DNA from: Blautia sp. An81
Lineage (GTDB): Bacteria; Bacillota; Clostridia; Lachnospirales; Lachnospiraceae
Length of the DNA: 64,000 nt
Assembly: GCF_002161285.1 (NCBI RefSeq)
Contig: NZ_NFHH01000002.1
Span: 124,001-188,000, forward strand
Direction of reading: 5' to 3'
Below the pieces are notes generated by a model. It did no database searches, was not told the DNA's origin, and worked only from the letters and a program-made list of their open reading frames with translations. This document shows, piece by piece, positions 11,743-24,539 of the stretch. The position numbers and the translations under genes were made by a program. The number at the start of each line of letters is the position of its first letter. Positions within the stretch are counted from its first letter, which is position 1.

Positions 11743-11824
11743 AGTAATGCCTTCGAAGTATGGGGGCATGACCCGGAACTATTCTGCATAGATTGTAAAA
11801 AGCAGAGATTTCGGGGGATTTTCC

Positions 11825-11968
11825 TTGAAAGATTATATTGAAGAGCGTGCTATTGAAATTGCAAATTATATTATTGAAGAGAAAGCCACGGTAAGGCAGA
11901 CAGCAAAGAAATTTGGGGTGTCGAAATCTACGGTACATATAGATGTAACAAAAGAGGTGTTTTTGTGA
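11825..11968 (+). pseudogene. spoIIID: spoIIID, 5' part of a split gene (N-terminal HTH half)
   Basis: TTG start at 11825 after CGGGGGATT. Codons 1-38 encode the SpoIIID N-terminus: KDYIEERAIEIANYIIEEK, then TVRQTAKKFGVSKSTVH, the HTH including the recognition helix. SpoIIID is the DNA-binding regulator that acts in the mother cell under SigE. Homology stops exactly at His38 (11936-11938); the next codons belong to the inserted element and hit TGA at 11966, giving a 47-residue product. The missing 46 codons, KDVTERL onward, are at 24399-24536 in the same orientation. A weak SigE-like -10 (CATAGATT, 11787-11794) lies upstream. Confidence 0.9.
11935..11950 (+). repeat. Left attachment junction (attL) of the spoIIID element
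   Basis: ACATA TAGATGTAACA. The first five bases are shared exactly with the right junction, and the near-homology AGATGT continues after one mismatch. The stretch ATATAGATGTAACA (11937-11950) recurs exactly at 22787-22800 over the recombinase promoter. Confidence 0.75.
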
Positions 11969-12118
11969 AGGTTGTTTATGAGGTGAGGTAAGAGTGTTTA
12001 GTGGGGTTAAGACTTTTATATGTAACAACACGTGTTCAAAAGGTACGATTTAAGCGAAAAAAGCCTCGTGACCATGAGGAAAATAAAAGCAAAAAGTATT
12101 CTGTGATAAAGTATAAAG

Positions 12119-12153
12119 GATTAGAAGAGAAAATGTCTCTTCTAGTCTTTTTT
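12119..12153 (+). terminator. Rho-independent terminator
   Basis: GATTAGAAGAGA (12119-12130), loop AAATG, TCTCTTCTAGTC (12136-12147), then TTTTTT. It lies just inside the left end of the element, where it would stop transcription entering from the spoIIID promoter. The 260 bp between the truncated spoIIID and the IS66 fragment hold no other feature I can support. Confidence 0.8.
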
Positions 12154-12232
12154 AGTGAGAAAGTTTTTCTGATGAAGTGTAATAATATGTGGTTATATGC
12201 TTTGTAGAAAAATCCGTAGGAATTAAAATTTT

Positions 12233-12760
12233 TTGTTTTATGGAAAGATTCCGTCGGTGCAGGGAGTACAATTCTGCTCCAAGCTGTTTGATTGTGAGCG
12301 GTACTCAAAAGCAAAAAATCATACTGCGGAGCAGAGAAAACAGTTCCGTCTTGAAAAGGAGAAGCCGATACTGGAGGCATTCTGGAATTGGCTGGATCAA
12401 CAGCGTCCAAACAAGGGAACCCGTTTGGCGAAAGCGGTGAACTATGCCCAAAATCGGAAAGACACTCTGATGACCTATCTGGAAGACGGTCATTGCAGTT
12501 TATCCAATAATCTTAGCGAGAATGCAATCAGACCATTCACTGTTGGCCGGAAAAACTGGCTGTTCAGTGCCAGTCCGAAGGGAGCTGCCTCTAGCGCTAT
12601 TGTGTATACAATGGTTGAGATGGCAAAAGCGAATGACCTGAATACCTACAAATATCTGACATACCTCTTATCACAGCGGCCAGACGCTAAAATGTCAGAT
12701 GAACAGCTGGAACAGCTTGCCCCATGGAGCGAGACTGCGAAAGCGAACTGTCAAAACTAA
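12233..12760 (+). pseudogene. IS66 family transposase (TnpC), C-terminal fragment
   Basis: 175 residues corresponding to the C-terminal third of an approximately 500-residue IS66 transposase: FRLEKEKPILEAFWNWLDQQ, then DTLMTYLEDGHCSLSNNLSE with the catalytic Glu context, IRPFTVGRKNWLFSASPKGA, and the C-terminal DEQLEQLAPWSE. The N-terminal leucine zipper/HTH and the first catalytic Asp residues are absent. Homology begins abruptly around 12240, so this is a truncated, non-autonomous remnant. Confidence 0.88.
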
Positions 12761-12828
12761 ACATAGAGCAAAACGCTTGCATCTATCATTTTGGTGCAAG
12801 CGTGATTCATGGGCAGCGTAGCAATATT

Positions 12829-13659
12829 TTGCGCTTACTAAAAAAGGATGAACACACTCACTATGACAAGAAGAAAAAAGATGTTGCTCCGAACAGACAA
12901 TTGGCACAGGCCATTCTTAATCAGTACCAGCCTAAAAGTGTGGAGGACATGCAGGATGCGCTGAAAGATATTTTTGGCTCCATGTTTGAAGCAATGTTGC
13001 AAGACGAAATGAACAGCCATCTGGGATACTCGAATAACGAGCGGAGCGAAAAAGAAACTACTAACCGAAGAAATGGTTATACAAAAAAAACATTGAAAAC
13101 AACAGTTGGCGATGTCCCTATTGAAGTCCCACGTGATCGGGAAGGTACTTTTGAACCGGCGGTTGTACCGAAAAGAAAGCGGGATGTCTCAGATATTCAG
13201 GACAAAGTACTTTCCATGTATGCGAAGGGAATGAGCCGGCGCGATAATGCAGATACCATTGAAGATATCTACGGATTCGAAATCTCTCATGAGACAATTT
13301 CAGAGATTACAGACAGCGTTCTGGAGCAGCTGGAAGAATGGCAAAACCGCCTATTAAAGCGCTTCTATACCTTTTTGTTTGTAGACTGCCTGTACGTTGC
13401 AATCCGAAAGGAATACGAAACAAAGAACTATGCCGTCTATGTGATTCTGGAATACGATGTTGATGGGCAAAAAGATATCTTGGGATTATGGCTGAGTGAG
13501 TCCGAAAGTAAACATCAGTGGATGCAGATCTTTGATGAGATCAAAAATCGCGGCGTGGAAGATGTTCTTTTCCTTTCTATGGATGGTGTAAGCGGACTGG
13601 AAGAAGGAGCCAAAGCGATTTTTCCGCATGTGACGGTGCAGCGATGCATGAGAGATTGA
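12829..13659 (+). pseudogene. IS256 (Mutator-type) transposase, truncated
   Basis: Homology to IS256-type transposases begins near PNRQLAQAILNQYQPKSVED; an in-frame TTG at 12829 is the nearest start. The domain continues through RRNGYTKKTLKTTVGDVPIE and PKRKRDVSDIQDKVLSMYAK to TFLFVDCLYVAIRKEY (first DDE Asp) and VLFLSMDGVSGLEEGAK (second Asp). It stops at VTVQRCMRD, where the family continues with VHLIRNS, so about 130 residues with the catalytic Glu are missing. A 29-codon unassigned frame (13644-13733) follows in another frame. Confidence 0.85.
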
Positions 13660-13818
13660 TTTCTGCTTATCAGGAAGCCCGTGAATTAAACGATGAAATG
13701 GAAGGCCTTGTGAAAGATGCTTTAACAAATTAACTCAAAAGAGTACTTGAGTATAAGACTGGGGAGGTTTCCCTCCACAAAATATTTTTCAAAAACTTAC
13801 ACAAAAAACTTGACAATC

Positions 13819-13982
13819 CCACGTTCCAGAGATGATTTCTCCTGATTTACGTAATTTTTTGGTGATTTTAGGGGCACCATAATTCTGTTTTGATTCATCG
13901 TAAATATCCTGAATTTTAGCTTTTACGGCTTCACGTCTTTTTTCTGTATTGGAAGGAACACGTTTTAGCCATTTTTCTTATA
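13819..13982 (-). pseudogene. IS3 family transposase OrfB fragment
   Basis: On the minus strand this reads KKWLKRVPSNTEKRREAVKA and then KIQDIYDESKQNYGAPKITK, the N-terminal HTH_21-type region of IS3/IS150 OrfB, breaking off after SGEIISG. About 55 of roughly 270 residues remain and no DDE domain is present. With the IS66 and IS256 debris it makes this part of the element an insertion hot spot. The rest of 13740-14119 shows no gene. Confidence 0.75.
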
Positions 13983-14119
13983 AGGAATTCTCATTTTGAC
14001 TTGTACTATTTATATTCTAACACCAATAATCTAATTGATTATTATCAGGTTTAGGTAGATAAATAAGATTTTTCGCAAATTCTACAAAGGATATTAAGAA
14101 TAATATTGGGGGAGGGCCT

Positions 14120-15349
14120 ATGAGCGATATAATTAAATTTAATTCTGACAGAGAGATAGTTACAGAACAGAATGGTGAAATCGTAAGAGAATGCAATGAT
14201 TTAGCCGAGATGACAGAAGAAATGTTGCTGGATGCACGAAAAGAAATTGCAAATACTAAAACACTTAGTGCGCCGATTGCTGAACTGGCTTTATTAGGAA
14301 CTGGAGTAGCGTCTTTAATCCCGGCTTTAAGGAAAGTAACACAAACAACAACATTTAATACTCAGGGATTATATCAGCTTGCAAATGCAGGAGTAGGAGA
14401 CACTTTAAAGATATCAAAGAATGGCAATTTTTGGGGAGCATTCAAAACTGCAGATGGGTCATCGAAATTTGCACAGCTTCAAGCGGCAGAGCCTCTTTCA
14501 ACTACCAGTACTGCGGTAATGCCTATTGATCCGGCAATAATGATGGCAGTAGCGTTGTTTGCAATAGAGCAACAGTTAAAAGGTATAGAGGAAAAACAGA
14601 AGCAGATTCTGTCATTCCTTGAAATTGAGAAAGAATCAGAGACTGAAGCAGATGTAGAGATTCTGTCAAAGATGATTACTACATATAAGCATAATTGGAA
14701 TAATGAGCATTTTATTGCAAGCAATCATAAGATGGTGTTGGATATTCAAAGAACAGCCAGAAAGAATATGCTTTCATATAAAAAGAAGGTTGCAGAACTA
14801 CTAGATTCCAAAAAAATGATTGTTGCTCAGGCAAAAGTAAAATCAATTTTGAGCGATTTACAGAAGAAATTCAAATATTACAGATTGTCGCTATATACTT
14901 TTTCTATGGCTTCATTGATTGAAATTATGCTTAGTGGTAATTTCAAAGAGGCATATATTTCTGATATAAAGACAGAAATTAAGAAAATTTCATTGGAATA
15001 CAGAGATTTATTTACAGAATGTTCCATGTATCTTGAGAAAATGGCTTCAGGATCTGTAGAAGCAAATGTTATGAAAGGTATTGGTGTTGCAAGTAAGGCA
15101 GTAGGAAAGTTTATAGGAAGTATTCCAGTTGTAAAAGAAGGGCAAGTGGACGAGTTCTTACAAGATGGAGGAGCACATTTGAAAGAAAATGCCCAGGATA
15201 TGCAGAAGAATATATTAGAATCATTTGCAACCCTTCATAATCCGGGAACTGGTGTTTTTATGGAAAAAATGGAGGATATGATTCAGATTTATAATCATAC
15301 GGACAGAATTTGTTTTGATGATAAGAAAATATATCTTATTGCAGGGTAA
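14120..15349 (+). CDS. Unknown alpha-helical protein with membrane-active-like segments
   Basis: 409 residues, no family recognised. GGGGGAGGGCCT precedes the ATG. Two hydrophobic stretches stand out: IAELALLGTGVASLIPAL (about residues 54-71) and DPAIMMAVALFAIEQ (about 138-152). A glycine-rich amphipathic stretch, KGIGVASKAVGKFIGSIPVV, lies near residues 318-337. The region between is a long charged helix (GIEEKQKQILSFLEIEKESE). The pattern recalls helical pore formers or membrane-tethering proteins, but this is not evidence of function. It ends 8 bp before a GIY-YIG nuclease gene, so the two likely form one unit. Confidence 0.6.
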   Translation: MSDIIKFNSDREIVTEQNGEIVRECNDLAEMTEEMLLDARKEIANTKTLSAPIAELALLGTGVASLIPALRKVTQTTTFNTQGLYQLANAGVGDTLKISKNGNFWGAFKTADGSSKFAQLQAAEPLSTTSTAVMPIDPAIMMAVALFAIEQQLKGIEEKQKQILSFLEIEKESETEADVEILSKMITTYKHNWNNEHFIASNHKMVLDIQRTARKNMLSYKKKVAELLDSKKMIVAQAKVKSILSDLQKKFKYYRLSLYTFSMASLIEIMLSGNFKEAYISDIKTEIKKISLEYRDLFTECSMYLEKMASGSVEANVMKGIGVASKAVGKFIGSIPVVKEGQVDEFLQDGGAHLKENAQDMQKNILESFATLHNPGTGVFMEKMEDMIQIYNHTDRICFDDKKIYLIAG

Positions 15350-15357
15350 GATAATGG

Positions 15358-16182
15358 ATGAATGCGAATGAGAAGGAGAAGAATGTGGAGAAATTTTCAG
15401 AGAAAAGTTTATTATCGCTTGGAGATTATTATGTCTATGGTCTGATTGATCCTAGGAATAGGAAAATATTTTATATTGGCAAGGGAACCGGGAATCGAGT
15501 TTTTGAACATGAATTGGAAAGTCAAGAAAATCCTGAGAGCGAAAAGTTGAAATTAAAGATGATAGTCGAGATTAAAGCAGCTGGTTTGGAAGTTGAAAAA
15601 GTTATTATTAACTGCAATCTGACAGAAGCGGAAGCATTTGCAGCAGAAGCGTCACTGATTAATGCGTTTAATTATGTTGAAGACACCCGGTTAACAAACA
15701 TTGTTGCAGGACATCATTCGGCAGAGGCTTTGACAGTAGATGATTTTGAAAAGATATATGGAGCAGAAGAGTTACAAGAATCAGATATCCGACACAAGAT
15801 AATGATTATCAAGATAAATAAACTTTATCAAAAAGGAATGACGGAAGAAGCTCTGTATGATTCGGTACGTGGTATTTGGCGAGCATCACTAGAACGTGTG
15901 AAGACAGTGGAATATGTTTTTGGGGTTTATAATTCGTTAATAGTTGCGGTATATAAACCGACAACGTGGTATGTCTGTAAAGAAGCATTAGAAAAATTGC
16001 CAAAGCATGTTACACAGTTGACTTCGAAAACGGAGAACAGAGTATTTTTTGTAGATAAAGGATTTGAGAATCATGAGTTAATGGACAAAGCAGAAAAGTT
16101 TTATTTGTATAAGTCCATTGCTAGTTTGAAAGTGAATCAGAGTGCACAGAATCCAATTACATATTTAGAGGCTAAAGAATAG
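15358..16182 (+). CDS. GIY-YIG nuclease domain protein (COG3680 / LEM-3-like)
   Basis: 274 residues from ATG 15358; an in-frame GTG at 15385 has the better ribosome site (AGGAGAA) and may be the true start. The nuclease domain occupies about residues 20-115: YYVYGLIDPRNRKIFYIGKG gives the GIY...YIG pair, then the Arg helix GTGNRVFEHELES and Glu in LTEAEAFAAEASLINAFNY. This resembles the stand-alone GIY-YIG class found in COG3680 and animal LEM-3 nucleases. The C-terminal 150 residues (WRASLERVKTVEYVFGVYNS) are unassigned. It follows the unknown gene by 8 bp and precedes a terminator at 16315. Confidence 0.8.
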   Translation: MNANEKEKNVEKFSEKSLLSLGDYYVYGLIDPRNRKIFYIGKGTGNRVFEHELESQENPESEKLKLKMIVEIKAAGLEVEKVIINCNLTEAEAFAAEASLINAFNYVEDTRLTNIVAGHHSAEALTVDDFEKIYGAEELQESDIRHKIMIIKINKLYQKGMTEEALYDSVRGIWRASLERVKTVEYVFGVYNSLIVAVYKPTTWYVCKEALEKLPKHVTQLTSKTENRVFFVDKGFENHELMDKAEKFYLYKSIASLKVNQSAQNPITYLEAKE

Positions 16183-16314
16183 AGCAAGATCCACCCCGGT
16201 ATTACCATATTGCAATTTCTTGCATGTTCTTATTCGGAGTATTGAATTGATGGGGAGCATCCCCATACCCGCTAATTGGCTTCGCAACAAAAAATATATA
16301 TTTTTGAATAAATA

Positions 16315-16362
16315 CAGCTATATGGTTTCAGAGATGAAATCAGATGGCTGTTTTTGTTTTTT
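16315..16362 (+). terminator. Rho-independent terminator after the GIY-YIG pair
   Basis: CAGCTATATGGTTTCA (16315-16330), loop GAGA, TGAAATCAGATGGCTG (16335-16350) with one mismatch and G-U pairs, then T5GT6. The 16183-16314 gap and the 16363-16679 gap contain no gene I can support. Confidence 0.75.
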
Positions 16363-16679
16363 ACATTTAATACAAGTTTTCATGAAGTGATGCTTTTACA
16401 TTTTGGTAAAAACCAAGATGTTTTAATGGGTTTGAGGTGTCCTCAGTAAGAAGAAAATCATGGGATGACATGGAGAGAAAAACGATAATGTTAAACATAG
16501 GTGGATTTTGCTCTGTAAAAAATAAAAGAAATATGGAGTAACCCTGTAAAAGAGTTCATTTTCCTTTCGTTATATAGAGGGATATTCAAAACGCTTAAAA
16601 ATGAAGTGAGGTTAAGGTCTATTTCAATAGACATTTTCATAGTAATGGACAAAGAGAAAAGGGAGGTGGGAGCACCGCT

Positions 16680-16847
16680 ATGAAGAAACAAAAACTGAAT
16701 TATCGTTTTCATAATCCGAATACTGCGGAAGTGACCGCCGATTACATATTGAAAGTATTTATTGAGGCGAATATGAAGAAAGTAGAACGGGCTATGCAGG
16801 AGGTGGCTGAAAAAGGTTTGGAAGAGGACAAGCAGGAGAGAAAATAA
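16680..16847 (+). CDS. Small conserved mobile-element protein (55 aa)
   Basis: 55 residues: MKKQKLNYRFHNPNTAEVTA then a helix DYILKVFIEANMKKVERAMQ. GGGAGGTGGGAG at 16661-16672 gives a clear ribosome site. Near-identical short proteins accompany conjugative and mobilizable elements of gut Firmicutes; the function is unknown. It indicates that part of this region came from such an element. Confidence 0.65.
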   Translation: MKKQKLNYRFHNPNTAEVTADYILKVFIEANMKKVERAMQEVAEKGLEEDKQERK

Positions 16848-16943
16848 AAGATTTTGAGCTGCAAGTTTACTTGTGTTCTTGATGGAAAAAGGGTAAACTG
16901 ATGAATAAGAAGTTGCGATTTTGAAGGGAGACCTTGATTATTT

Positions 16944-17030
16944 ATGAGAAAAGAATTTGATATTTCACAGTTCGATAAATATAGAGAAGATAACAGAAGA
17001 GAAGTAAAGAAAGCGAATGGGGGCTTTTGA
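16944..17030 (+). pseudogene. Truncated AlbA_2-type DNA-binding protein (N-terminus only)
   Basis: 28 codons: MRKEFDISQFDKYREDNRRE then VKKANGGF and stop. EDNRREVKKA(N/A)GG is the start of proteins with the AlbA_2 (Schlafen-like) DNA-binding domain. All following domain residues are missing. The next 80 bases encode another fragment (AETMRVIGMAEEYVKKNRLQ) that I cannot assign. Confidence 0.55.
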
Positions 17031-17236
17031 TTGAAATAGAGTCTTGTCAGGCGGAGACCATGCGTGTGATCGGAATGGCAGAAGAATATGTGAAAAAGAA
17101 CCGACTTCAAAAAGGGCAGATATAAAGTCAATAAATATACTGATAAAAATACTGCTTTAAATTAGTATATACGATTGGCTATGTTTTATATATTTGTTAT
17201 GTTAGTTTATGTAGAATATGAGGGAAAATTAAAAAA

Positions 17237-17420
17237 ATTAGCACTCACCTCTTGATAATGGAAGTTGATTTTTGTCCTGTCTTGTGTATCTCAGAAATGC
17301 CTATTTTACAGGCTTTCGGAGTGATCAGACATTTTGTCTAGTATCGTAGAATAGCGTCAAATGAATTGCAAATGGTGTAAATTTGGTGTAAAAAATCAGA
17401 GAAAAAAGGAGAGTGCTAAT
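17237..17420 (+). repeat. Widely spaced inverted repeat with CIRCE half-site sequence
   Basis: ATTAGCACTC at 17237-17246 and its exact complement GAGTGCTAAT at 17411-17420, 164 bp apart, just before the TnpV start. The nonamers equal the two arms of the HrcA operator CIRCE, but the spacing (normally 9 bp) is wrong for a functional site. Confidence 0.5.
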
Positions 17421-17423
17421 AAA

Positions 17424-17770
17424 ATGAAGCTGACTTATACAAATGTGAATGGATATCTGATTCCTAATCTCACCTATAAATCCGGTGAGCAGATGGAACA
17501 ACTTGGGAAATATGGATTTTTACGCAGAGACTATTTGAAGAATCACAGAAATTCGCTGTATCAGGTAATGCTCCTGCAAGACAGCATTAGTGAGCATCTG
17601 CTGGAAGTAGACAGGCAGCCAGAGAACGGGAAGAAATTATTCTGAAACAGCTAGAGAAAAAAGAGCCTTTGCCGGATAAAGAGAAAGATCAGATGGCATG
17701 GGTAAGAGCTGCCAATCAACACAGAGCGATTGCGGAAGAGATCATCCTGAAGGAATTGATTTATATCTAA
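17424..17770 (+). pseudogene. TnpV family transposon-encoded protein, frameshifted
   Basis: ATG 17424 after AAAGGAGAG encodes MKLTYTNVNGYLIPNLTY and GKYGFLRRDYLKNHRNSLYQ, typical of TnpV (about 115 residues). Around 17613 the frame shifts. The rest, EEIILKQLEKKEPLPDKEK and then AIAEEIILKELIYI, continues in the next frame to TAA 17768-17770. It is a transposon accessory gene inactivated by one frameshift. Confidence 0.75.
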
Positions 17771-17932
17771 ATGAATGTGATGAGGTCGTGGAATGCGACC
17801 TCATTGTTGTATGAGAATATAAAATTGCAGTAGGCAGAACGGTCTAAAAAGGGTAAAATAGAAATATCAGTTTGTAATTTTGGATTGAAAAATTGCAATA
17901 TTATCACTGTTAACAGGAAGGAGGGCTTTCTG

Positions 17933-18817
17933 ATGAATAAAGCGTTTTATGGAGAAATTAAGAAAATACTTTCAGATGCAAGAAATAAAGTTTATCAGAC
18001 TGCCAACTTTGCCATGGTGGAAGCTTACTGGCAGATTGGAAAGTCTATTGTTGAAGAACAAAACGGAGAAGAACGTGCAGAATACGGAACAGGATTGCTC
18101 AAGGAACTGTCGAATCAGATGACACGAGATTTTGGAAAAGGTTTTACGGTAGCAAATCTGAAAAATATGCGGCAGTTTTATCTGACGTTCCCAAATAGCT
18201 ACGCACTGCGTAGCGAATTGAGTTGGACGCATTATCGACTTTTAATGCGTGTAGAAAATGTTGCACAGGAGATTCAAACATTAGAACAGGGAAAAACACC
18301 GGAGGATATTATTCGTGATCCATATGTGCTGGAATTCCTTGGATTGTCTCCGAATGATGATTTTTATGAAAGTGACTTGGAACAGGCTCTTATTACACAT
18401 TTACAAAAGTTTTTATTGGAATTAGGATGAGGATTTTCTTTTGTTGCCAGGAAAAAAAGAATTACGTTTGATGGATGCCATTTTAGAATAGATCTTGTTT
18501 TTTACAATTATATTTTAAAATGTTTTGTGCTTATTGACTTGAAGATTGGTGATTTGACACATCAGGATTTAGGACAGATGCAAATGTATGTGCATTATTA
18601 TGAACGAGAATTGATGAACGAAGGAGATAATCCGCCGATTGGAATTGTGTTATGTGCAGATAAGAGTGATGCAGTTGTACGATATACATTGCCAGAAAGT
18701 GAAACACAGGTTTTGGCTTCAAAATGTAAATTATATCTTCCTTCAGAAGAAGAATTACTGAAAGAGTTAAAAAGGGAATATCAGGCAATGGAAGCTGCAC
18801 AACCAGACAAAAAATAG
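17933..18817 (+). pseudogene. YhcG/DUF1016 PD-(D/E)XK nuclease with one internal TGA
   Basis: ATG 17933 follows AAGGAGGG. The DUF1016_N part reads VEAYWQIGKSIVEEQNGEER and FGKGFTVANLKNMRQFYLTF. The nuclease part reads FRIDLVFYNYILKCFVLIDL, then KIGDLTHQDLGQMQMYVHYY. The two halves are in the same frame and separated only by TGA 18428-18430 in LLELG-stop-GFSFVARKKR, where homologues have a charged residue such as Arg. It is otherwise full length (294 codons). These nucleases occur with restriction and mobile elements. Confidence 0.8.
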
Positions 18818-19046
18818 AAACTTTATTGGTTAATGGAGTAGATATAAAGACAGGCGTGAGTCATAAAAAATATGACTTGGTCAAAATCCATTCCACTTGC
18901 TGTAAACTGTCAGGAATGCTATATTATAAGAAATATCTGTCGTACTGTACAGTTGTACCAAAAATAAAATGTATGGGAAAGACGGTGAAAAAATGATACC
19001 GCCTGTAAGAATACACGGACGGAAATGGGATGTGGAGGAATGGAGC

Positions 19047-19754
19047 ATGTTTAAAGAAATTAGAGATGAACGGGCTTTCAACGGGATTTTAAATCAGATT
19101 ATAGAGAACATTCAGAATGGCAGTCTCAAAGCGGGCGATGCCCTTCCGGCGGAGCGGACAATGGCGGAGATCATGGGAGTATCCAGACCGGCAGTCAGAG
19201 AAGCTTTGAGAGCACTGGAACTGCTGGGAATAGTCAAGCCGGTGCCGGGAGGCGGAAATTATATTACGGAGGACCTGGATACCTGGCTGATCGAACCTTT
19301 ATCCATACTTTTTAAATTAAATAATGGATATCTGCGCCAGAATCAGCAGTTCCGTGCGGCACTGGAGCGAGAAGCGGCAATTCTTGCGGCACGAAAGTGC
19401 ACACCGCTGGATGCAGCAGAATTATGGGTGATTCTTGCACGGCTGGACGCCGCAGAAGATGAAAAGATACGGGGTGAACTGGATCGCGAACTTCACAAGA
19501 AGATTGCAAAGATCGCAGATAACCCGATGGTTTACAGTGTCCTTGCGGCAGCAGATCAGCTTACTGAGAATATTGTTTCCGGGACGAGAGACTACATTAT
19601 GAAAAAGAATAATTCTGTCAGAGAGGTTGATGACCAGCATCATCGGCTTGTTAAGGCAATCATCAACGGAGATGTAGAACAGGCGGAACGATGTATGTCC
19701 GAACATATGGATACGATTGAACGTTATATGGAAGAAATGCAAAAAAAATCCTGA
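19047..19754 (+). CDS. FadR-type GntR transcriptional regulator
   Basis: 235 residues from ATG 19047, which follows GTGGAGGAATGG; an in-frame ATG at 18969 is less well supported. N-terminal winged helix: IENIQNGSLKAGDALPAERT, then MGVSRPAVREALRALELLGI and PVPGGGNYI. The C-terminal FCD ligand domain has ALEREAAILAARK and the metal-site type residues DRELHKKIAKIADNP and MSEHMDTIERYMEE. FCD regulators usually sense small carboxylates; the adjacent malate/lactate genes fit this. The gap 18818-19046 holds no gene. Confidence 0.88.
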   Translation: MFKEIRDERAFNGILNQIIENIQNGSLKAGDALPAERTMAEIMGVSRPAVREALRALELLGIVKPVPGGGNYITEDLDTWLIEPLSILFKLNNGYLRQNQQFRAALEREAAILAARKCTPLDAAELWVILARLDAAEDEKIRGELDRELHKKIAKIADNPMVYSVLAAADQLTENIVSGTRDYIMKKNNSVREVDDQHHRLVKAIINGDVEQAERCMSEHMDTIERYMEEMQKKS

Positions 19755-19797
19755 GAAATTTTGGGCATTTTTACAGGGTAAATTGATATGACCTCTA

Positions 19798-19872
19798 TTG
19801 CGTTTTGGTAATACCGGCGGTATAATTAAAATGTAAATTGGTAATGCCGATAAATAAAACTGGCAACACCAG
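19798..19872 (+). promoter_or_regulatory. Promoter with three phased FadR-type operator repeats
   Basis: TTGCGT (19798-19803), 17 bp, TATAAT (19821-19826). Three copies of TGGYAAYRCC lie at 19806-19815, 19839-19848 and 19861-19870; their starts are 33 and 22 bp apart, all on one DNA face. The first runs into the palindrome ATACCG-G-CGGTAT (19811-19823), which overlaps the -10 box. The last lies in CTGGCAACACCAG just before the ribosome site. Confidence 0.7.
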
Positions 19873-19888
19873 AAGGAGGGACGAAACA

Positions 19889-21019
19889 ATGGGATATGTG
19901 AAATGGTCACATGAGACACTGAATCATTTTTGCGGAGACGTATTCAAGGCGTTTGGTTTTACAGAGGAAGAAAGCAATCAGATCAAGGATGTGCTTCTTA
20001 CGGCTGACCTTTATGGAATAGAAAGTCATGGCATGCAGAGAATGGTGCGTTATCATAAGGGAATCGAAAAGGGAACGATCCATCCGCAGGCAAAGCCTGA
20101 AATTGTATTTGAAACACCGATATCTGCAGTGATTGATGGTCATAATGGAATGGGACAGCTTATTTCCGTTTATGCAATGAAAAAAGCAATCGAAAAAGCC
20201 AAAAAGACCGGAGTTGGAATTGTAACTGTCCGTGAGTCTAATCATTTCGGTATCGCTGGATATTATGCAAAGATGGCATGCGATGAGGGACTTCTGGGAA
20301 TGGCCTGTACAAATTCAGAGGCTATTATGGTTCCTACGTTTGGCAAAAAAGCCATGCTTGGATCAAACCCAATCGCAGTAGCTATGCCGGCAGACCCGTA
20401 TCCGTTTTTCTTTGACTGTTCTACCACGGTAGTTACAAGAGGAAAACTCGAAATGTACAATAAAATGGAGAAACCACTTCCGGATGGATGGGCCCTGGAC
20501 AAAGATGGTCATGCAAGTACAGATGCACCGGATGTCCTTTCCAATATTGTTGCAAAGAAGGGCGGTGGAATCATGCCCCTTGGTGGAAATGAAGAGGTTA
20601 CAGGAAGCCACAAGGGATATGGATATGGTATGCTGTGTGAACTATTCAGTTCCATTCTTTCTATGGGTGTTACTTCGGATCATTGCTGCACATTCCCGGA
20701 TAAAACAGGAATCTGTCATGGATTTATGGCAATCGATCCGGCTGCATTTGGTGATCCTCAAGCAATCCGCAGACACTTTTCAGAATACCTGGAAGCTTTG
20801 AGAGAAAGTCCGAAGGCAGAAGGCAAAGATCGTATTTATACACATGGTGAAAAAGAAGTTTTGGCAGAAAAAGATAGAAGAGAGCATGGATTACCTGTAA
20901 ACGATAATACGATGGTCGAACTTGCTAATCTGTGTGGATATCTCGGACTTGACTTTAATAAATATTTTGATGGATATGAGCTTCCAAAAGAAAGCAAATT
21001 CTTTACCGGTAATTATTAA
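19889..21019 (+). CDS. Ldh family oxidoreductase (malate / L-lactate dehydrogenase, type 2)
   Basis: 376 residues from ATG 19889 with AAGGAGGGA at 19873-19881; an upstream in-frame start at 19838 lies within the operator region. It is an NAD(P)-dependent cytoplasmic dehydrogenase acting on 2-hydroxy acids such as malate, lactate or ureidoglycolate. Visible: ADLYGIESHGMQRMVRYHKG, VTVRESNHFGIAGYYAKMA, FGKKAMLGSNPIAVAMP and EVTGSHKGYGYGMLCELFSS, all family hallmarks including the catalytic His of SNHFG. Followed 98 bp later by malic enzyme. Confidence 0.9.
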   Translation: MGYVKWSHETLNHFCGDVFKAFGFTEEESNQIKDVLLTADLYGIESHGMQRMVRYHKGIEKGTIHPQAKPEIVFETPISAVIDGHNGMGQLISVYAMKKAIEKAKKTGVGIVTVRESNHFGIAGYYAKMACDEGLLGMACTNSEAIMVPTFGKKAMLGSNPIAVAMPADPYPFFFDCSTTVVTRGKLEMYNKMEKPLPDGWALDKDGHASTDAPDVLSNIVAKKGGGIMPLGGNEEVTGSHKGYGYGMLCELFSSILSMGVTSDHCCTFPDKTGICHGFMAIDPAAFGDPQAIRRHFSEYLEALRESPKAEGKDRIYTHGEKEVLAEKDRREHGLPVNDNTMVELANLCGYLGLDFNKYFDGYELPKESKFFTGNY

Positions 21020-21117
21020 TAGATTAGAAGATTGCTGTGAACGGAGTGAACAGCAACAATAGAAGAGTCGAATGATACGGTTTCGCAAAATTTAAGATAC
21101 CAGGGAGGACAATAGAA

Positions 21118-22293
21118 ATGGATTATGCAAAAGAATCTTTAAGACTGCATGGAGAATGGAAAGGTAAGATTGAAGTTGTAACAAGAGTACCTGTAGAAAA
21201 TAAGGATGATCTGTCACTTGCCTATACACCAGGTGTTGCACAGCCTTGTCTCGAAATCCAGAAGGATGTGGATAAATCTTATGATCTTACCAGAAGATGG
21301 AACATGTGTCTGGTAGTAACTGACGGTTCAGCTGTTCTTGGACTTGGAAATATCGGACCAGAGGCCGGAATGCCGGTAATGGAAGGAAAATGTGTACTTT
21401 TCAAGGCATTTGGCGATGTAGATGCATTCCCTCTTTGTATCAAGAGCAATGATGTAGATGAGATCGTTAATACAATTTATCTGATCTCCGGTTCTTTTGG
21501 CGGAGTAAATCTGGAAGATATTTCAGCACCGAGATGTTTTGAAATTGAGAAGAAATTAAAAGAAAAATGTGATATCCCGATTTTCCACGACGATCAGCAT
21601 GGTACAGCGATTATCACTCTTGCCGGTCTGACCAACGCACTGAAGGTTGTAGGAAAGAAAAAAGAAGATGTTCGTATCGTTATGAACGGAGCAGGAGCTG
21701 CTGCAATTTCTATTGCACGTCTCCTTCTGACAGCAGGATTCAAAGATATCACTCTCTGCGACAGAAAGGGTGCAATCTACGAGGGACGCCCGGAAGGCAT
21801 GAATCCGATCAAAGAAGAAATGGCTAAAGTTACTAACCTGGCTAAAAAATCCGGTTCTCTTGCAGAGATGCTGGTTGGCGCTGATGTATTTATCGGTGTT
21901 TCAGCACCGGGTGCTGTTACAACAGAGATGGTTAAGACCATGAACAAAGATGCAGTTGTTTTTGCATGTGCGAACCCGACTCCGGAGATTTTCCCGGATG
22001 ATGCAAAGGCAGGCGGAGCAAAAGTTGTTTCCACAGGAAGAAGTGATTTTCCGAATCAGATCAACAACGTACTTGCTTTCCCGGGAATCTTCCGTGGTGC
22101 ATTTGATGTGAGAGCAAAAGAAATCAATGACGAAATGAAATTGGCAGCGTCTGAAGCACTTGCAAATCTGATCACAGATGAGGAACTTTCTCCGGAGTAT
22201 ATTATTCCGAAGGCATTTGATAAGCGAGTAGGACCAGCGGTAGCCAAAGCGGTTGCTGAGGCAGCAAAGAGAACCGGTGTAGCTCGTATTTAA
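21118..22293 (+). CDS. NAD(P)-dependent malic enzyme
   Basis: 391 residues, the short bacterial form without a phosphotransacetylase extension. It decarboxylates malate to pyruvate in the cytoplasm. Conserved parts: SLAYTPGVAQPCLEI with the catalytic Tyr region, GLGNIGPEAGMPVMEGKC, metal ligands in CFEIEKKL and IFHDDQHGTAIITLAG, and the Rossmann loop MNGAGAAAISIARLLL. AGGGAGGACAATAG precedes the ATG. With the Ldh enzyme and FadR regulator it makes a small malate/lactate module without a transporter. A short frame after it (22296-22376, AGVTPESHETALKVMKAC) is unassigned. Confidence 0.93.
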   Translation: MDYAKESLRLHGEWKGKIEVVTRVPVENKDDLSLAYTPGVAQPCLEIQKDVDKSYDLTRRWNMCLVVTDGSAVLGLGNIGPEAGMPVMEGKCVLFKAFGDVDAFPLCIKSNDVDEIVNTIYLISGSFGGVNLEDISAPRCFEIEKKLKEKCDIPIFHDDQHGTAIITLAGLTNALKVVGKKKEDVRIVMNGAGAAAISIARLLLTAGFKDITLCDRKGAIYEGRPEGMNPIKEEMAKVTNLAKKSGSLAEMLVGADVFIGVSAPGAVTTEMVKTMNKDAVVFACANPTPEIFPDDAKAGGAKVVSTGRSDFPNQINNVLAFPGIFRGAFDVRAKEINDEMKLAASEALANLITDEELSPEYIIPKAFDKRVGPAVAKAVAEAAKRTGVARI

Positions 22294-22461
22294 ACGAGAT
22301 ACGCAGGGGTAACACCGGAAAGTCATGAGACTGCACTGAAGGTTATGAAAGCGTGCCAGATAGAGGTTGTCGAATGAACGGATTACAAAAAGATATAGAA
22401 TAAAGTAAAGCAGAAGGGGCTGTCGGTTAATATCACATTTCGGCATCCTCAGTAGCAATTG

Positions 22462-22520
22462 AAAGGATCCCTGCAAGGACAAGGCTTGTTAGCCTTCCAC
22501 CTTGCGTAGGATCCTTTTTT
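22462..22520 (+). terminator. Rho-independent terminator after malic enzyme gene
   Basis: AAAGGATCC pairs with GGATCCTTT, then GCAAGG pairs with CCTTGC, and AAGGCT-TGTT-AGCCTT forms the tip. A run of six T ends the structure. The gap from here to the recombinase promoter has no gene. Confidence 0.85.
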
Positions 22521-22760
22521 CTATGAAAGATGAAATTTATTTTTGGCCGCAAAAATCCCTTGTCTGGATTTTTACAGCCACACTTTTGATCAAGCTGTTT
22601 TTTTCGGTGTTTTTCCCTCAAACTTCTTTAATTTTTCATTGAGAAAACGGCAGTATTTATTTATATTCCTTCCGATTGCGGTCCGCTCAAGAGATTAAAA
22701 GATAAATAAAAGTAGAGTAGTTTGAGATGGGATTAATTTCAATAATTTTCTCTTTTTCTG

Positions 22761-22800
22761 TTTAAGAATCTTTATTTTGATATATAATATAGATGTAACA
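22761..22800 (+). promoter_or_regulatory. Recombinase promoter carrying a copy of the att arm
   Basis: TATAAT at 22783-22788 with a weak -35 (TTTAAG, 22761-22766). The sequence ATATAGATGTAACA at 22787-22800 is identical to 14 bp of the left junction (11937-11950) and overlaps the end of the -10 box and the start region. Recombinase binding here would give autoregulation. Confidence 0.55.
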
Positions 22801-22831
22801 GAAAATTAATTTGATACAGAGAGGTAACACT

Positions 22832-24400
22832 ATGAAGATAGCAGCCTATTGCCGTGTTTCCACAGATAAAGCCGACCAGCTTAACAGTTTAGAAGCTCAA
22901 AAGGAATTTTTCTCCGAATATACGCAGCGTACCGGAGATGTGTTAGTAAAATTATATGCAGATGAAGGTATTTCCGGAACGAAAATAAAAAATCGTAAAG
23001 AATTTCTTCGTATGATGTCTGATGCAGAAAAGGGAATGTTTGATATGGTCGTTGTAAAGGATATTTCTCGTTTTGCCAGAAATACCGTAGATCTTTTACA
23101 GAATGTTCGCAAGTTGAAAGCGTTAGGTATTGAAACACAGTTCCTTACAGCGAATATGACAAGTATGGGAAATAGTGAGTTTGTTCTCACCATCTTTGGA
23201 GCATTGGCTCAGGAAGAAAGTGCCAATACATCTAAGCGAGTGAAATTTGGAAAGAAACTAAATGCAGAAAAAGGACGAGTTCCCAACATTGTGTACGGAT
23301 ACGATAAAACAATCGGAGATTATTTCAATCTTGAGATTAACAAAGAAGAATCGAAGGTTGTAAAGCAAATTTATAAGTGGTACACAGAGGAGGGTTACGG
23401 TGCTGCCAAGATTTCCAATATGCTGAATGAAAAGGGGTATCGGACAAAGAGAAACTGCAAATGGAGTCAAAATGCCATCTGTCGGATTTTGACCAATGAG
23501 ATTTATACGGGAAAGATTATCAATGGAAAGCAGGAAATCAGTGATTTTCTGACTGGTCAGAGAAGAGAGAAGGATGAAACGGAATGGCTTGTTGTGGAAC
23601 GTCCGGAGCTTCGTATGATTGAAGATGAGGTGTTTGAAAAAGCACAGGAAATTCTTCGTGGAAGAAACGATGCATTTAACTTGAATCATGAACGTCAAAG
23701 CAACAAATATTTATTTTCTACGTTGATTAAATGTAAAGAATGTGGATGGTCGTTTAGAAGAACAGTCCGTACTTACAAAAATACGTATGTGCGTTGGGTT
23801 TGTTCCGGAAGAAATGGAAAGGGAGCAGACAGTTGTCCAAATAAAACTGCCGTGGATGAAGAAGAATTAATCCAGGTTTTACAGGAATATTTCAATCGGA
23901 TTCTACAGCAAAAAAATAAAGTGATTGATTATGTAGTGAAAGAATTTCAAAGAGTGTACAAAGCAAAAGATGAAAATGCAGAGTACGAGAAGGAATTGAA
24001 TTTGCAGATTGCCAGATTACAGAGAATGCGACAGAAATATATGGACATGTATACTGATGATTTGATTTCAAGAGAAGAATTGAATGATAAGTTGGGTGGT
24101 ACTCGTCAAGAACTGGCTCGTCTGGAAAATGAATTGAAAATGGTATCCAGTAATTTGACAAAAGGAGATCAGATGGAAAAAATCTTAAATGATACCTTTA
24201 AGCAGATTGAGGATATTACAGATGTTCATGAGATGACCAATGTACAGTTAAAGAGACTGATTAAGAAAATAGAAGTAGACAAAGATGGAAATGTGGATAT
24301 TTACCTTCGATTATTGGGAGATTTGGGATTAAATGAAAGCATTTTAGTGGAAGACGAATGTGAAAATAAAACAGTTCTAAATAGTAATGACCAAACATAA
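22832..24400 (+). CDS. Large serine recombinase of the spoIIID element
   Basis: 522 residues from ATG 22832 after GAGAGGTAAC. Domains: catalytic resolvase fold about 1-150 (AAYCRVSTDKADQLNSLEAQ with the nucleophile Ser10, ADEGISGTKIKNR, VVVKDISRFARNTVDLLQNV), recombinase DNA-binding domain about 155-270, zinc ribbon (IKCKECGWSFRRT ... WVCSGRN ... DSCPN), then a coiled coil about 380-460. It is complete and looks active. It reads toward the right junction and its last codon and stop, ACA TAA, lie in the ACATA att core. It is the likely enzyme for integration into and excision from spoIIID. Confidence 0.93.
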   Translation: MKIAAYCRVSTDKADQLNSLEAQKEFFSEYTQRTGDVLVKLYADEGISGTKIKNRKEFLRMMSDAEKGMFDMVVVKDISRFARNTVDLLQNVRKLKALGIETQFLTANMTSMGNSEFVLTIFGALAQEESANTSKRVKFGKKLNAEKGRVPNIVYGYDKTIGDYFNLEINKEESKVVKQIYKWYTEEGYGAAKISNMLNEKGYRTKRNCKWSQNAICRILTNEIYTGKIINGKQEISDFLTGQRREKDETEWLVVERPELRMIEDEVFEKAQEILRGRNDAFNLNHERQSNKYLFSTLIKCKECGWSFRRTVRTYKNTYVRWVCSGRNGKGADSCPNKTAVDEEELIQVLQEYFNRILQQKNKVIDYVVKEFQRVYKAKDENAEYEKELNLQIARLQRMRQKYMDMYTDDLISREELNDKLGGTRQELARLENELKMVSSNLTKGDQMEKILNDTFKQIEDITDVHEMTNVQLKRLIKKIEVDKDGNVDIYLRLLGDLGLNESILVEDECENKTVLNSNDQT

Positions 24401-24410
24401 AGATGTCACC
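24395..24410 (+). repeat. Right attachment junction (attR) of the spoIIID element
   Basis: ACATA at 24395-24399 matches the left junction; AAGATGTCACC then continues into spoIIID. The mismatch right after ACATA (A here, T at the left) places the crossover within ACATA, because only then is the conserved Lys codon after STVH restored. Confidence 0.75.
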
Positions 24411-24539
24411 GAACGTCTTCTCCAGATCAACCCCTCTCTTGCGGCCCGGGCCAGAGTGGTGCTGGACGTAAACAAATCAGAACGGCATATCCGGGGCGGA
24501 CTGGCTACCAGGGAGAAATACCTGCATCAGCATGCATAG
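24396..24539 (+). pseudogene. spoIIID: spoIIID, 3' part of a split gene (C-terminal half)
   Basis: Starting with the shared His codon at 24396, the frame reads HKDVTERLLQINPSLAARAR then VVLDVNKSERHIRGGLATRE and KYLHQHA, stop at 24537. This is the C-terminal half of SpoIIID including its basic DNA-contacting tail. In the inserted state an in-frame ATG at 24387 exists but has no ribosome site. Fused to codons 1-38 at 11825-11938 it gives an uninterrupted 84-residue protein, normal for clostridial SpoIIID. Confidence 0.92.

Follow-up and report, generated by a model that had tools for sequence, protein, structure and literature searches.

Sporulation genes interrupted by excisable elements have been described in several bacteria. 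In Bacillus, SP-beta interrupts spsM, vfbin spoVFB, yin yabG and skin sigK (PMC4191935, PMC10747680); in B. cereus ATCC10987, gerE is split by the gin element (PMC5595907); and in the skin element of C. difficile, the recombinase is driven by σA and its recombination directionality factor (RDF), a protein of 72 amino acids (aa), by σE (PMC5025042). Here we describe a 12,460-bp element that splits spoIIID in Blautia sp. An81 (family Lachnospiraceae), within a stretch of 64,000 nucleotides (contig NZ_NFHH01000002.1, positions 124,001 to 188,000), hereafter the window. With a probability of roughly three in four, we consider it to be a mobile, skin-like element of a large family, termed spoIIID-in, that integrates at codons 38/39 and is removed in the mother cell.

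With the C. difficile skin element (sigK; recombinase CD1231, RDF CD1234) the locus shares a serine recombinase, a small (here candidate) RDF and a mother-cell gene split in frame. It differs in its target, spoIIID acting before sigK, and in the control of the RDF: SpoIIID additionally controls the skin RDF, which would be impossible before excision in the spoIIID element because SpoIIID is itself the split product. Like gin (GirA, GirB, GirC, GirX), the window element splits a small mother-cell DNA-binding regulator, shows no phage genes among those searched and has a small putative RDF of no known family. In contrast to gin, with its three recombinases and 9-bp core (PMC5595907), the window element has a single serine recombinase gene. 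A second class of spoIIID insertions, described below, resembles gin in having three serine recombinases in a row (genomes G118, G174 and G213). Unlike SP-beta, vfbin, yin and skin of Bacillus, which occupy other targets, the spoIIID family is found at one and the same place in several bacterial families. No interrupted spoIIID was found in the literature searched, with subscription journals and preprints largely outside the search. Within the reach of our searches, the novel aspects are the target, repeated insertion at a single place in different bacterial families and by different recombinase classes, the candidate RDF family and the attachment site (att) motif shared with the recombinase promoter.

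The element spans positions 11939-24398, and the two spoIIID halves flank it on the + strand (Table 1). A direct repeat of ACATA (11935-11939 and 24395-24399) marks the two ends, and the gene is split in frame between His38 and Lys39. The coordinates agree with those of a preliminary description of this locus, which had reported halves of 38 and 46 codons in the same orientation with ACATA at each end. It had also placed the cut right after the recognition helix of SpoIIID; the location at His38/Lys39 holds, while we take this position to lie inside the helix. Before excision, the N-terminal half reads into the element (...H-I-D-V-T-K-E-V-F-L-stop), giving a run-on of 9 codons with its stop at 11966-11968. 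The only matches to the PF12116 profile in the whole assembly (a 4.3-Mb draft of 82 contigs, 100% complete) are these two halves, so that this search reveals no second spoIIID in the source genome. As described earlier, the last gene of the element encodes an intact large serine recombinase whose stop overlaps the right core. Its resolvase catalytic domain, recombinase domain and zinc ribbon are all present, and residue S10, presumably the catalytic serine, is invariant in 10 of 10 aligned sequences.

The preliminary description predicted that joining the halves at ACATA restores spoIIID. Exactly this junction, GGTACATAAAGATGTCAC, exists in a genome of the same genus (G002, locus L008), whose uninterrupted locus aligns contiguously with both flanks of the element (92.5% identity over 939 nt upstream, 97.3% over 297 nt downstream). 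This empty site is a natural control for the proposed excision product.

The same interruption recurs. Among 20 genomes of the genus, spoIIID is split in six (G000, G004, G008, G012, G013, with a lone N-half at the end of a contig, and G014), intact in 12 and below the cut-off in two. In a family sample of 397 genomes, 241 have spoIIID over the cut-off, and 26 of these carry a gene split at this position or no more than three codons away; the 156 without spoIIID over the cut-off include incomplete bins. The 26 are what remains of 28 half-only genomes after removal of a contig break in an intact gene (G157) and a degenerate case (G394), and the count misses genomes that have an intact copy besides a split one (e.g., G225). 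Both halves are on one contig in 12 splits and on two contigs in eight, and a single half was found in six (G022, G242, G298, G437, G213, G399). Chance is excluded because five further genomes of the genus and 25 further ones of the family sample have spoIIID split here (G012 belongs to both). By their ends, 20 of the 26 splits belong to the class of the window. Four (G012, G118, G174, G213) form a second class with the core GATG, a few bases downstream of the window-class core, and inverted ends TGGTGTCA (loci L039, L040, L122-L125, L130; some genome and locus handles denote the same genome from two collections). Three tandem serine recombinases are seen in G118, G174 and G213; the contigs of G012 break at the element, and tandem recombinases are not visible there. 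In the remaining two splits (G097, G311), a third class, the recombinase of the element is 45-47% identical. Thus, no fewer than three recombinase lineages have hit codons 38-41 of spoIIID. Two loci have a more complex layout: G004 (L037, L038) contains, inside the element at ~3,023,939, another spoIIID N-half that is divergent and has an element left end of its own, and in G148 (C33; L114, L115) the halves are ~75 kb apart, with an extra frameshifted N-half fragment near the left end.

The recombinase itself is closely tied to spoIIID. Among the best 80 of 384 relatives in named genomes, 77 loci lead into the spoIIID C-half: 76 in which it is readable, and L165, whose contig ends 36 bases past the recombinase, still within the C-half. 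In 69 of the 76 readable loci, there is an exact overlap of the recombinase stop with the core; codon 39 is directly preceded by ACAT in 71 loci, by ACAC in four and by GCAT in one. Among the hosts are Blautia glucerasea, B. schinkii, B. massiliensis, [Ruminococcus] torques ATCC 27756, Schaedlerella arabinosiphila, Mordavella massiliensis, Agathobaculum butyriciproducens and Pseudoflavonifractor phocaeensis. Close recombinases (E≤1e-180) are present in at least 15 of the 397 genomes of the family sample (13 split ones, G225 and G297), a lower bound, as at most three candidates were scored per genome. In a recombinase tree built by a quick method, host-family labels are more clustered than in shuffles, but eight changes are required for Lachnospiraceae, which speaks for neither pure descent nor free transfer. 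Three bins labelled Parabacteroides, Bacteroidales and Muribaculum (L154, L191, L203) also hold the recombinase with a spoIIID C-half; these groups are, to our knowledge, not spore formers, and the contigs or labels are probably misplaced.

Horizontal mobility and membership in a large family were not foreseen by the preliminary description. Over the 5.5 kb at its right end, the window element matches the G008 element at 98% identity, vs 72% for the spoIIID C-halves; for L140, the two values are 98% and 75%. It follows that the element recently crossed between species and entered the same codon again, which demonstrates active and precise integration. On three IMG/VR contigs (50-119 kb, with identical recombinases), a recombinase with 72% identity runs directly into an element left end, forming a palindromic attP (TGACTCCTGTACAT followed by ACAGGAGTAAC); phage genes such as that of a head maturation protease lie nearby on one of them (L220). 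The attP-bearing contigs indicate that the element family includes phages. Two further viral contigs (L235, L236) have the window left end beside unrelated sequence, in neither a spoIIID nor an attP context, and L235 also holds three distant recombinases. A looser pattern of the circle junction has 0 matches in the viral contigs, and the one viral match to a second looser pattern was rejected as chance, as it lies without recombinase or RDF.

Besides the recombinase, one small gene accompanies these elements throughout. We compared 25 complete elements, leaving out L174 (same as G434) and G097 and G311 (other recombinase class). They range from 3,818 to 20,045 bp and vary widely in cargo; the small gene, whose window copy encodes 55 aa, is found in all 25 by profile (21 by BLASTP), on the same strand as the recombinase and ~0.25 to 8.7 kb upstream of it. 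It is present in 82 of 99 recombinase loci (some representing the same genome twice): the 17 loci that lack it have at most 4,720 bases upstream, and it is never missing from the 68 loci with 5 kb or more. In the family sample it occurs in 17 of the 397 genomes, namely 15 split by the window class, G297 and, weakly, G118. The protein matches no Pfam or NCBIfam family, and its predicted structure, one long helix (mean predicted local distance difference test score, 80), has no convincing relative among solved structures. Since RDFs show no significant sequence similarity to one another (PMC5025042), a universal small gene is the best RDF candidate, and we propose this role for the small-protein family.

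The upstream regions of the two genes suggest different timing. From 70 aligned spoIIID promoters of the family we derived the local σE pattern KMATA-N16-CATA[CG]AnT, and a matrix trained on 66 distinct ones was scored against shuffles. σE-type sites (p≤0.05) occur in 24 of 60 upstream regions of the candidate RDF (~3 by chance) and in 3 of 85 of the recombinase (~4 by chance). The 60 are the distinct regions of at least 120 nt and, being kin by descent, do not amount to 60 independent tests; eight RDF loci in which the anchor residues are absent were dropped (L217, L181, L158, L164, L187, L169, L185, L182). One RDF subgroup has TAATA-N16-CATAGAAT. Upstream of the recombinase, the −10 element is instead of TATAAT type, and TA[TC]AAT is closely trailed by GTAAC in 40 of 85 regions. 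From these patterns, we infer a division between a σA-driven recombinase and a mother-cell RDF, which would be that of the C. difficile skin element.

A further signal links the promoters to the integration site. The host right arm of att corresponds to codons Lys39 to Arg44 of spoIIID (AAAGAYGTAACAGAACG). Of the 85 distinct regions preceding the recombinase, 66 contain a copy of it with at most 4 of 17 mismatches (shuffles, 0.35%), and in 60 of these 66 it lies 42-46 nt before the start; the shuffles keep single-base content only, and the 85 regions are kin by descent. This suggests that the recombinase may control its own gene via an att half-site. The leader of the candidate RDF gene contains GGACAAAG, which presumably resembles the Bacillus SpoIIID box, in 34 of 60 regions, and the att arm copy beside the recombinase promoter also contains TGTAACA. 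As TGTAACAAT has been put forward as a putative motif for SpoIIID in C. difficile (PMC5025042), SpoIIID acting at the recombinase promoter would be an alternative reading.

The hosts of split spoIIID genes retain other sporulation genes. We searched 29 split genomes (all 30 known except G022) together with 20 intact and 15 spoIIID-less ones hand-chosen from our genome lists. spoIVA is present in 29/29 split, 20/20 intact (in two pieces in G011) and 5/15 spoIIID-less genomes; the corresponding numbers for σK-type matches, which include a σE relative, are 28/29, 20/20 and 6/15, the split genome without a match being G212 (79% complete). The source genome has spoIVA and σK-type genes and no other intact spoIIID. 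Moreover, the spoIIID C-half is open in all 92 cases (our script counted 90; L163 and L212 are open with a different end). The retained markers and open C-halves are consistent with hosts that still sporulate, for which whole SpoIIID should be necessary at some time; they fall short of proof, since insertions can be recent. Two of the genomes with a split spoIIID also have sigK in two parts (G264 and G388, C19 and C68; profile positions ~24-118 and 108-226), located ~20 kb apart on one contig in G264 (C1, 659043-679486), and one sigK part each was seen in G072 and G075, which have no spoIIID over the cut-off.

Taken together, these data argue for the skin-like switch that the preliminary description had offered as a candidate, by virtue of the recombinase-spoIIID tie, the candidate RDF, the σE-type sites, the retained sporulation markers, the lack of a second spoIIID match in this assembly and the empty site. 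Two of the checks named in that description, for a second gene copy and in related genomes, thus turned out in favor of the switch. The sequences establish the split and the element family, from which the identity of the RDF, its σE timing and excision in the mother cell are inferred. In vegetative cells, the element would lie inside the gene and SpoIIID would be truncated. During sporulation, the recombinase and the RDF would recombine attL with attR, freeing a circle and rebuilding spoIIID; the rebuilt gene, itself preceded by a σE-type promoter, would then let the later mother-cell programme proceed. Because the mother cell is terminal, the spore would retain the element.

Several observations weigh against such regulated removal. 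In 36 of 60 RDF upstream regions, the best site does not rise above shuffles, and this includes the site in the window (GTCTA...CATAGTAA; p 0.75). The circle junction of the window has 0 matches in the viral contigs, and no excised circle of the window class was found there. The RDF role of the small protein is deduced from co-occurrence. The recombinase ends in other host sequence in three of the 80 loci (L155, L202, L214); these ends fall at or near the same core letters, and other target sites may exist. In G297, spoIIID is intact, and the genome also has a candidate RDF and a recombinase truncated by the end of its contig. The G225 bin holds a divergent intact spoIIID as well as a split copy with recombinase (C42:153187-153429, C5:2163-2306), reflecting either mis-binning or a true second gene. 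The recombinase of G004 is frameshifted (354 + 154 aa), the sole broken one among those of the window class read whole. Although dN<dS/2 in all 153 scored pairs (259 of 414 pairs are saturated), this is weak evidence of purifying selection, because the elements move, intact halves may be recent, and the host halves are older than recent insertions. Finally, within the literature scope given above, no spores are documented for the named split species.

The strongest competing explanation is an ordinary mobile element with spoIIID as its attB and with infrequent, unregulated excision, reconstitution in sporulation being incidental. The elements do move between hosts and some relatives are phages, the recombinase promoter is of TATAAT type, the RDF promoter in the window is not significant, and the C. 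botulinum yin element is reported to be excised at all time points (PMC10747680). We nevertheless regard this explanation as unlikely, given that the elements shrink to 3.8 kb, yet 25 of 25 keep both recombinase and candidate RDF, that σE-type sites precede 24 of 60 RDF candidates, and that the split genomes keep spoIVA (29/29) and σK-type genes (28/29). Less probable still is a plain inactivating insertion leaving the split lineages without sporulation, the alternative named in the preliminary description. The comparative evidence favors the switch, as spoIVA is found in 29/29 split vs 5/15 spoIIID-less genomes, σK-type genes in 28/29, C-halves are open in 92/92, and only the G004 recombinase is broken among those of this class read whole; that recombinase, G212 without a σK match and the 156 of 397 family genomes without spoIIID over the cut-off are what speaks for inactivation. 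We see very little room for SpoIIID functioning without excision, as a truncated protein or two fragments: the left end does continue the frame with H-I-D-V-T-K, near the native H-K-D-V-T-E, but the C-half lacks a start codon of its own, and the run-on of the N-half comprises just 9 codons in the window and is likewise short where read in relatives. An assembly or binning artefact, conceivable because most relatives are metagenome bins and some labels are improbable, is contradicted by the split spoIIID in the single-contig genomes G004, G008 and G274 and in named isolates, and its likelihood is negligible.

The other genes of the window element are cargo (Table 1). No virion structural genes were found among the element genes searched (10 in one search, 8 in another). 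Two cargo genes are defense-like, those of the PD-T4-3 and the truncated PDC-S02 proteins, and the 409-aa cargo gene has no match in family or defense-model searches. The GntR, malate/lactate dehydrogenase and malic enzyme genes, which lie inside the 5.5 kb shared with the G008 element at 98% DNA identity, are carried between species as element cargo.

Table 1. Features of the split spoIIID locus and its element in the window
Feature	Coordinates	Strand	Remarks
spoIIID promoter region	11780..11824	+	CATAGATT, σE-type −10 common to family spoIIID genes
spoIIID 5′ half	11825..11938	+	38 codons, TTG start, ends S-T-V-H; PF12116 positions 1-43
attL	11935..11968	+	ACATA core and element left end ATAGATGTAACAAAAGAGG
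Transposase remnants	12233..13659	+	IS66-type and Mutator-type; cargo
Cargo gene	14120..15349	+	409 aa; no family matched
GIY-YIG protein	15358..16182	+	Cargo; PD-T4-3 defense model match, E 2.3e-42
Promoter-like site upstream of candidate RDF	16617..16645	+	GTCTATT-N14-CATAGTAA; position conserved
Candidate RDF	16680..16847	+	55 aa; family KLNYRFHNPN
DUF1016/PDC-S02-type nuclease gene	17885..18430	+	Cargo; truncated
GntR regulator, malate/lactate dehydrogenase (Ldh_2), malic enzyme	18969..22293	+	Cargo
Recombinase promoter	22761..22805	+	TTTAAG-N16-TATAAT, then ATAGATGTAACAGAAAA, att right arm copy (4/17 mismatches)
Large serine recombinase	22832..24400	+	522 aa, intact; ATG 22832, stop 24398-24400 over right att core
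attR	24375..24410	+	Element right end AGTAATGACCAA, ACATA core, then C-half start
spoIIID 3′ half	24399..24539	+	46 codons and stop, starts K-D-V-T-E-R-L; without own start codon

It is tempting to speculate further, with a confidence well below that in the switch at this locus, that spoIIID repeatedly serves gut mobile elements of at least three recombinase lineages as a docking site, and that the main lineage might be a self-limiting switch gating sporulation in about one in ten spoIIID-bearing species of the family (26/241). σE alone would start RDF expression, excision would rebuild SpoIIID, and SpoIIID or the recombinase would act back via GGACAAAG in the RDF leader and the att-arm copy. 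One motif would be common to the integration site, a promoter operator and the host coding sequence, and the locus offers a new pair of recombinase and small protein whose directionality is testable with plasmids. Sporulation governs the host-to-host spread of strict gut anaerobes. If our interpretation is true, a sizeable share of gut Clostridia would gate the mother-cell programme by removal of a mobile element, earlier than sigK, and genome-based predictions that equate a missing or broken spoIIID with a non-sporulating organism could mislead in split species.

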